A stretch of 64,000 bases of DNA, from assembly GCA_003282145.1 (NCBI GenBank), contig QBZZ01000001.1, forward strand, positions 62,001 to 126,000, given 5' to 3'. The notes under the pieces were generated by a model. That model made no database searches. It was not told the DNA's origin and was given only the letters and a program-made list of their open reading frames with translations. The DNA comes from SAR116 cluster bacterium AG-337-N21 (GTDB lineage Bacteria; Pseudomonadota; Alphaproteobacteria; Puniceispirillales; Marisalimonadaceae). The position numbers and the translations under genes are program-made. Below are positions 54,870 to 55,327 of this stretch, in pieces (positions within the stretch are counted from its first letter, which is position 1; each line of letters opens with the position of its first letter).

Positions 54870-54898
54870 AAAATATGAATTGTGTAGATATATGTCAA
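54870..54898 (-). promoter_or_regulatory. Predicted katG promoter
   Basis: On the minus strand a perfect TTGACA (54898-54893), a 17-base spacer and TATTTT (54875-54870), about 40 bases before katG. Confidence 0.6.
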
Positions 54899-54902
54899 GT
54901 AG

Positions 54903-54919
54903 TTTAGAACGGTTTTAAA
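54903..54919. promoter_or_regulatory. Candidate Irr box (iron control element) upstream of katG
   Basis: TTTAGAA-CGG-TTTTAAA differs at one base from the palindrome I recall for alphaproteobacterial Irr boxes (TTTAGAAnnnTTCTAAA). It lies four bases upstream of the katG -35 and directly behind the irr gene, a position more typical of activation than of blocking. Confidence 0.55.
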
Positions 54920-54928
54920 GTAAAAAAT

Positions 54929-55327
54929 TTAATTTTGTCTCTTTAATTTTATTATTACTTCAATACCGTTATTTAAATATCCTTGAGGGATTTCAGGTAG
55001 CTTATGTAAACTAATCTCTTCGTTTTCAATATCTATTAACTCACCGGTCTCTTCGTTTAAAAAATGGTGATGATAATCCGTATTTGTATCAAATATTGCT
55101 GTATCTTTAGAAGTTTCAACTTGTTTTATAAGTCCACAATTTTTAAATTTTTTTAAACAGTTATATACAGTAGCTATAGACATAGAATTACCAGATGTAT
55201 AAATTTCATCTTGGAGATTTTCAGCAGTAAAATGTCGATTAAAACCATCTAATAGTATATTAGCGACTATCATCCTTTGTTTAGTAGGTCTAAGTCCTGC
55301 ATTTCTTAATTTTTCTTTATTATTCAT
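54929..55327 (-). CDS. irr: Fur-family iron response regulator Irr
   Basis: A 132-aa winged-helix regulator. The N-terminal GLRPTKQRMIVANILLDG and SIATVYNCLKKFKNCGLIKQV form the DNA-binding domain. FDTNTDYHHHFLNEETGELIDI (HHH at 86-88) is the Irr signature, the region tied to haem sensing. The paired CxxC zinc motifs of Fur, Zur and PerR are absent, as expected for Irr. Irr controls haem and iron genes and responds to haem and peroxide. Its own promoter carries a Fur-type 7-1-7 box. Placed ahead of katG on the same strand, it links iron state to peroxide defence. Confidence 0.87.
   Translation of the reverse strand: MNNKEKLRNAGLRPTKQRMIVANILLDGFNRHFTAENLQDEIYTSGNSMSIATVYNCLKKFKNCGLIKQVETSKDTAIFDTNTDYHHHFLNEETGELIDIENEEISLHKLPEIPQGYLNNGIEVIIKLKRQN

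Follow-up and report, generated by a model that had tools for sequence, protein, structure and literature searches.

A conserved irr-katG cassette with an ICE abutting the katG promoter in the SAR116 order, a candidate haem- or peroxide-gated catalase switch

The gene for the catalase-peroxidase KatG of SAR116 cluster bacterium AG-337-N21 is preceded by a gene for an Irr-like regulator, and the short gap between the two contains an ICE (Irr box), an arrangement that recurs across all four families of the SAR116 order. As judged from sequence comparison, the two genes appear to form a dedicated irr-ICE-katG cassette, and we regard it as moderately probable that Irr represses katG until haem or peroxide relieves the repression. 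A link from Irr to katG in alphaproteobacteria is already known as a prediction, since Irr sites before catalase-peroxidases were predicted by Rodionov et al. (2006), as cited in PMC2464607. What is new is an order-wide irr-ICE-katG cassette without a recognisable OxyR, which is mostly single-site in the genomes scanned and has been exchanged with an irr-ICE-rubrerythrin cassette.

The window, i.e. the whole stretch of 64 kb that was analysed, has a GC content of 33% and belongs to an 82%-complete draft genome of 2.04 Mb. The genes irr and katG follow each other on the minus strand with 100 bp between them, and the features of the locus are as follows.

54929 to 55327, minus strand: irr, 132 amino acids, Fur-superfamily Irr-like regulator
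52693 to 54828, minus strand: katG, 711 amino acids, catalase-peroxidase HPI (TIGR00198, 1081 bits; cut-off 770)
54903 to 54919, minus strand: ICE (Irr box) TTTAAAACCGTTCTAAA, given on the katG strand, a 17-bp imperfect palindrome, from sequence, matrix and profile scans and conservation
54900 to 54922, minus strand: extended dyad TA-N-[ICE]-N-TA, from sequence and information profile
54893 to 54898, minus strand: putative katG -35 element TTGACA, predicted from sequence; the 4-bp gap recurs in relatives
54870 to 54875, minus strand: putative katG -10 element TATTTT, predicted from sequence, 17-bp spacer
55391 to 55396, minus strand: putative irr -35 element TTGACA, predicted from sequence
55348 to 55362, minus strand: Fur/Mur-box-like TGAGAACGATTATCA, 20 bp upstream of the irr start

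The original prediction had described a near-perfect Irr box four bases upstream of the katG -35 element, directly behind the gene for an Irr protein with an HHH motif, and its coordinates, sequence and gene arrangement were all confirmed. The plus strand at 54903-54919 reads TTTAGAA-CGG-TTTTAAA and agrees with the ICE TTTAGAA-N3-TTCTAAA in 13 of 14 fixed positions, with one mismatch, and the katG strand shows the layout TTTAAAACCGTTCTAAA-CTAC-TTGACA-17 bp-TATTTT, which places the ICE 4 bp upstream of the -35 element. The outer TA bases of the extended dyad are partially conserved over the genera sampled. The TGAGAACGATTATCA box at the irr promoter is kept with one to three mismatches in most loci of the same genus, and a sister genus (L054, L056) carries an ICE at the irr promoter in place of the Fur/Mur-type box, which suggests autoregulation there. 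Two more Fur-family genes are present in the genome, which appear from their sequences to be Fur/Mur-like and Zur-like, respectively.

The significance of the katG ICE was assessed with a matrix trained solely on 30 irr-rubrerythrin sites of other alphaproteobacteria, which assigns it 18.97 bits, compared to 9.94 bits for the runner-up in the window; no site in 4 Mb of first-order Markov sequence reached its score. The katG ICE also comes out on top when a profile of these 30 sites is run over the window without filters (11.1 bits, E 0.076, against 7.3 bits for the second-best site). Allowing no more than one mismatch, the ICE pattern is found six times in the 2.04-Mb draft, and only the katG site is placed at a promoter, the remaining five being located within ORFs or across a start or stop codon. 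ICE-like sites with two mismatches are not over-represented genome-wide (113 versus 150 for a reversed control), and an unsymmetrised profile yields other sites at 11-13 bits; the katG ICE does not appear among its hits, which carries little weight since 150 of about 3900 first-look candidates of the genome were scored. Because similar-scoring sites exist in the genome and there is no genome-wide excess, the case for the ICE rests on its place and its conservation. By score alone others come near it, but the concern that it may score no better than random AT-rich sites fails when placement is counted. A chance match, as might be proposed from the similar-scoring sites elsewhere in this AT-rich genome, is hardly credible in view of the promoter position, the conservation in relatives and the finding that the five others with no more than one mismatch all overlap coding sequence.

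This conservation was surveyed over 136 genomes of the SAR116 order (Puniceispirillales), many of them incomplete, which represent 20 genera in four families. The Irr protein is matched in 114 of them, about 104 of which carry an Irr-grade gene, since about ten of the matches reach merely E values near 1e-13 and represent the Fur/Mur paralogue. The gene order is conserved as well: katG is found directly downstream of irr in 68 of the 70 loci of the order that were read, the two exceptions being one genome without katG at this place and one contig end. When all fetched loci are counted, ICEs scoring 10 bits or more are present in 68 of the 71 distinct gaps between irr and katG and in 46 of the 52 between irr and rubrerythrin, versus 0.9% of shuffled gaps, so that the possible objection of relatives lacking the site clearly fails. 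The information profile, calculated from 15 loci in 14 of the order's 20 genera, shows 1.57 bits per column for the half-sites versus 0.2-0.3 bits in most flanking columns, and in these genera no other block of the gap is conserved as strongly as the ICE, with the -35 region coming second. In most families of the order the ICE is placed 2-5 bp before a TTGAC-type -35 element, and the distance is mostly 3-5 bp in the katG and rubrerythrin groups alike. Weaker ICEs are found in L072, L092, L094 and L095, and the site is weak or missing in L082 and L093, both from one genus. Taken together, the Irr-like regulator, the ICE and the conserved irr-katG order and site make a link of peroxide defence to the haem or iron state well supported as a hypothesis.

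Outside the order, in Rhodospirillales, Parvibaculum, Reyranella, the PS1 clade and further groups, a rubrerythrin gene often lies downstream of irr, with a similar layout of ICE and -35 element, and fabA is often encoded divergently upstream of irr, whereas the Rhizobiales irr loci read contain neither rubrerythrin downstream nor fabA upstream. The small-genome families f102 and f53 each contain one member with irr-katG and another with irr-rubrerythrin. A poorly resolved tree was computed from 97 Irr proteins; on it, the presence of katG has to change five times, by gain or loss, and well-supported branches force at least four of these changes. In the slot after irr, katG and rubrerythrin have been swapped repeatedly. 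One irr-rubrerythrin gap of family f53 (L303, genome G184) contains three ICE-like sites, two of them perfect and one located between the -35 and -10 elements. A further irr-rubrerythrin locus (L141) stems from a record titled SAR116 cluster bacterium AG-447-C21, whose Irr groups on a long branch with a Rhodobiaceae row; the SAR116 label of this record may be wrong.

The regulator itself contains the Fur-superfamily domain PF01475 (83.6 bits; cut-off 23.1), and its best models are IrrA (143.4 bits; cut-off 150) and Irr (136.5 bits; cut-off 170), both just under the curated cut-offs, followed by PerRA at 76.6 bits. It shares one fork with the Rhizobium and Bradyrhizobium copies in the protein tree, although this fork is poorly resolved and the tree has many open branches, few columns and no Fur or PerR rows. 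The HHH motif is located at residues 86-88, with H86 and H88 invariant and H87 nearly so. Residues H32, D80, H86, H88 and D99 align with the ligands H37, D85, H91, H93 and D104 of B. subtilis PerR, and N56 aligns with the PerR-type Asn; all five regulatory ligands and the Asn are invariant in 16 Irr sequences. Note that the Asp and Asn are generally retained among Irr proteins (PMC8638967); these PerR-type residues therefore do not separate Irr from PerR. The sequence contains no CxxC motif of a structural zinc site and no N-terminal haem regulatory motif of the Bradyrhizobium type. Since Brucella Irr likewise has no such haem motif (PMC3413700), it is not family-defining.

The order also appears to lack the peroxide sensor OxyR. 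Of 115 genomes sampled from the whole class, 35 score 200-294 bits with an OxyR model, whereas the best score over the 136 genomes of the order is 111 bits, indicating that OxyR of the known type is either absent or unrecognisable in the order. Another regulator mainly governing katG, with the ICE as a minor input, could be suspected from the further LysR-type genes in genomes of the order and from the few members with weak or missing ICEs, but is quite improbable, because nothing in the gap is conserved as strongly as the ICE across the genera sampled and no OxyR-grade protein was found in the 136 genomes. With irr adjoining katG and a conserved ICE set against the katG promoter, peroxide defence in SAR116 is probably wired to the iron or haem state.

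The number of further sites was estimated by a strict-ICE scan of 25 genomes in nine of the order's genera, which comprised nine genomes from the family of AG-337-N21 (f1) and sixteen from seven genera of families f3 and f4. Exactly one strict ICE is present in 11 of the 16 f3/f4 genomes, always in the irr-katG gap, and none in the other five, while the f1 genomes contain one to three additional strict ICEs, mostly without clear meaning. The statement of one target holds for this sample of nine genera out of twenty, taken from families f1, f3 and f4. A multi-gene iron regulon was not seen in the genomes scanned. The ICE TTTAAAATGATTCTAAA, located about 60 bp before petA (Rieske subunit) in L241, L242, L243 and L224, was considered as a second Irr target and rejected here, since it occurs in a single subclade of the genus and is missing from the genome of AG-337-N21. 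The classical Irr target mbfA shows no ICE within two mismatches in ten f1 loci (L208-L217); in these loci, mbfA (about 326 amino acids) adjoins a gene for an iron-binding-protein-like product and in several genomes lies about 3 kb from fur. It may be proposed, if tentatively and at somewhat less than even chances, that Irr has turned across SAR116 from a global iron regulator into a mostly single-target, peroxide- or haem-gated catalase switch which replaces OxyR and derives from an older, repeatedly retargeted irr-ICE-rubrerythrin cassette.

The mechanism favoured here is that of a two-gene control cassette, in which an Irr/PerR-type regulator acts on an operator, the ICE, abutting the -35 element of the next gene, katG. 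Irr very likely binds the katG ICE. In the form free of haem and peroxide it would hinder RNA polymerase at the -35 element and keep katG expression low, and either haem, as a sign of available iron, or H2O2 would take Irr off the DNA and derepress katG; the H2O2 route may run through oxidation of Irr, either at the iron pocket formed by its His and Asp residues or by way of bound haem. The cassette would thus stand in for OxyR and work like the actinobacterial furA-katG or the Bacillus PerR-katA systems, and the Fur/Mur-type box at irr in this genus would add an iron or manganese input. Repressor-type placements are found in family f2 (L068-L070), where the ICE overlaps the -10 element, in L095 (genome G077), where two weaker ICEs lie on either side of the katG core promoter, the second just after the -10 element, and in the -35/-10 spacers of katG in L302 and of rubrerythrin in L303, L126, L199 and L200; five loci whose ICE was misplaced by the automatic promoter call (L059, L073, L075, L092, L158) are left out of this count. 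In R. sphaeroides, transcription of ccpA starts about 40 nt downstream of the Irr box, and its expression is 1.8-fold higher without Irr under iron limitation, corresponding to mild repression (PMC3413700); a similar distance of about 40 nt between ICE and start is expected for katG. Moreover, irr mutants of three alphaproteobacteria show better resistance to oxidative stress (PMC3413700). The self-oxidation and degradation of haem-bound Irr in Bradyrhizobium (PMC4700492) and the near-consensus -35 element of katG also speak for repression. Points against the model are that the predicted protein does not contain the N-terminal haem regulatory motif used in this Bradyrhizobium mechanism, and that the ICE is weak or missing in some genomes of the order (L082, L093).

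The original prediction had instead regarded the site as placed for activation. This is not borne out, as a site abutting the -35 element fits either sign, ICEs overlap the core promoter in several lineages and ccpA is mildly repressed. Activation of katG by Irr at low haem or iron would agree with the tight spacing of 3-5 bp between ICE and -35 element over many diverged loci, as expected of an activator, and Bradyrhizobium ICEs act positively as well as negatively, according to a title cited in PMC2864753; the 1.57-fold increase of a rubrerythrin transcript of Pelagibacter under iron limitation (PMC2864753) would also fit if that gene is irr-linked. However, the near-consensus -35 element of katG should need no activator, and peroxide or haem would switch katG off if Irr were destroyed as in Bradyrhizobium, which leaves activation rather unlikely. 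A similarly doubtful alternative, actually a sub-case of the repression model that differs in the signal, is that the regulator is in practice a PerR which detects H2O2 by means of ferrous iron bound at its His/Asp site and in which haem plays little part, so that katG would be controlled by peroxide derepression alone. The aligned PerR ligands and Asn, the order without recognisable OxyR and the peroxide scavengers as targets in both slots argue for it, whereas the generality of Asp and Asn among Irr proteins, the missing CxxC zinc sites, the higher scores of the Irr models (143 and 137 bits, versus 77 for PerRA) and an operator of the ICE type argue against it. The proposed tie of the catalase to the haem or iron state is, as a hypothesis, well supported by the Irr-like regulator, the ICE and the conserved order, but the signal could be peroxide at a PerR-type iron site.

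Compared to known systems, the cassette shares the regulator type and the 17-bp operator with the Irr/ICE regulon of Rhizobiales and Rhodobacterales (bfr, mbfA, ccpA, hem genes), and a similar distance between operator and start with R. sphaeroides ccpA, which is also a haem peroxidase gene; unlike in that regulon, SAR116 irr adjoins its target, and mbfA of family f1 is without an ICE. The irr-rubrerythrin loci of Rhodospirillales, Parvibaculum, Reyranella and the PS1 clade likewise have irr, an ICE a few bp before TTGAC and a peroxide-scavenging target, but this is the non-haem rubrerythrin, in contrast to the haem enzyme KatG in SAR116. In the furA-katG loci of mycobacteria and furS-cpeB of Streptomyces, a Fur-superfamily gene is also located directly upstream of katG, with a peroxide logic. 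The operator of furA-katG is located before furA, whereas that of SAR116 lies between irr and katG, with a Fur-type box at the irr promoter instead. Bacillus PerR-katA has a common ligand set and likely the same derepression logic, but PerR recognises a PerR box rather than an ICE, contains the structural zinc site (CxxC) missing in SAR116 Irr, and controls a regulon.

The habitat of SAR116 bacteria is the sunlit surface ocean, where H2O2 coincides with a shortage of iron, and KatG itself contains haem. If a single regulator responds to haem or iron as well as to peroxide and mainly controls katG, the cassette would offer a compact system for studying the differences between Irr and PerR, and for asking why one slot can be occupied either by a haem peroxidase or by rubrerythrin, which has no haem. 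A specific prediction for ocean transcriptomes is obtained as well, in which katG may be compared with irr and iron.
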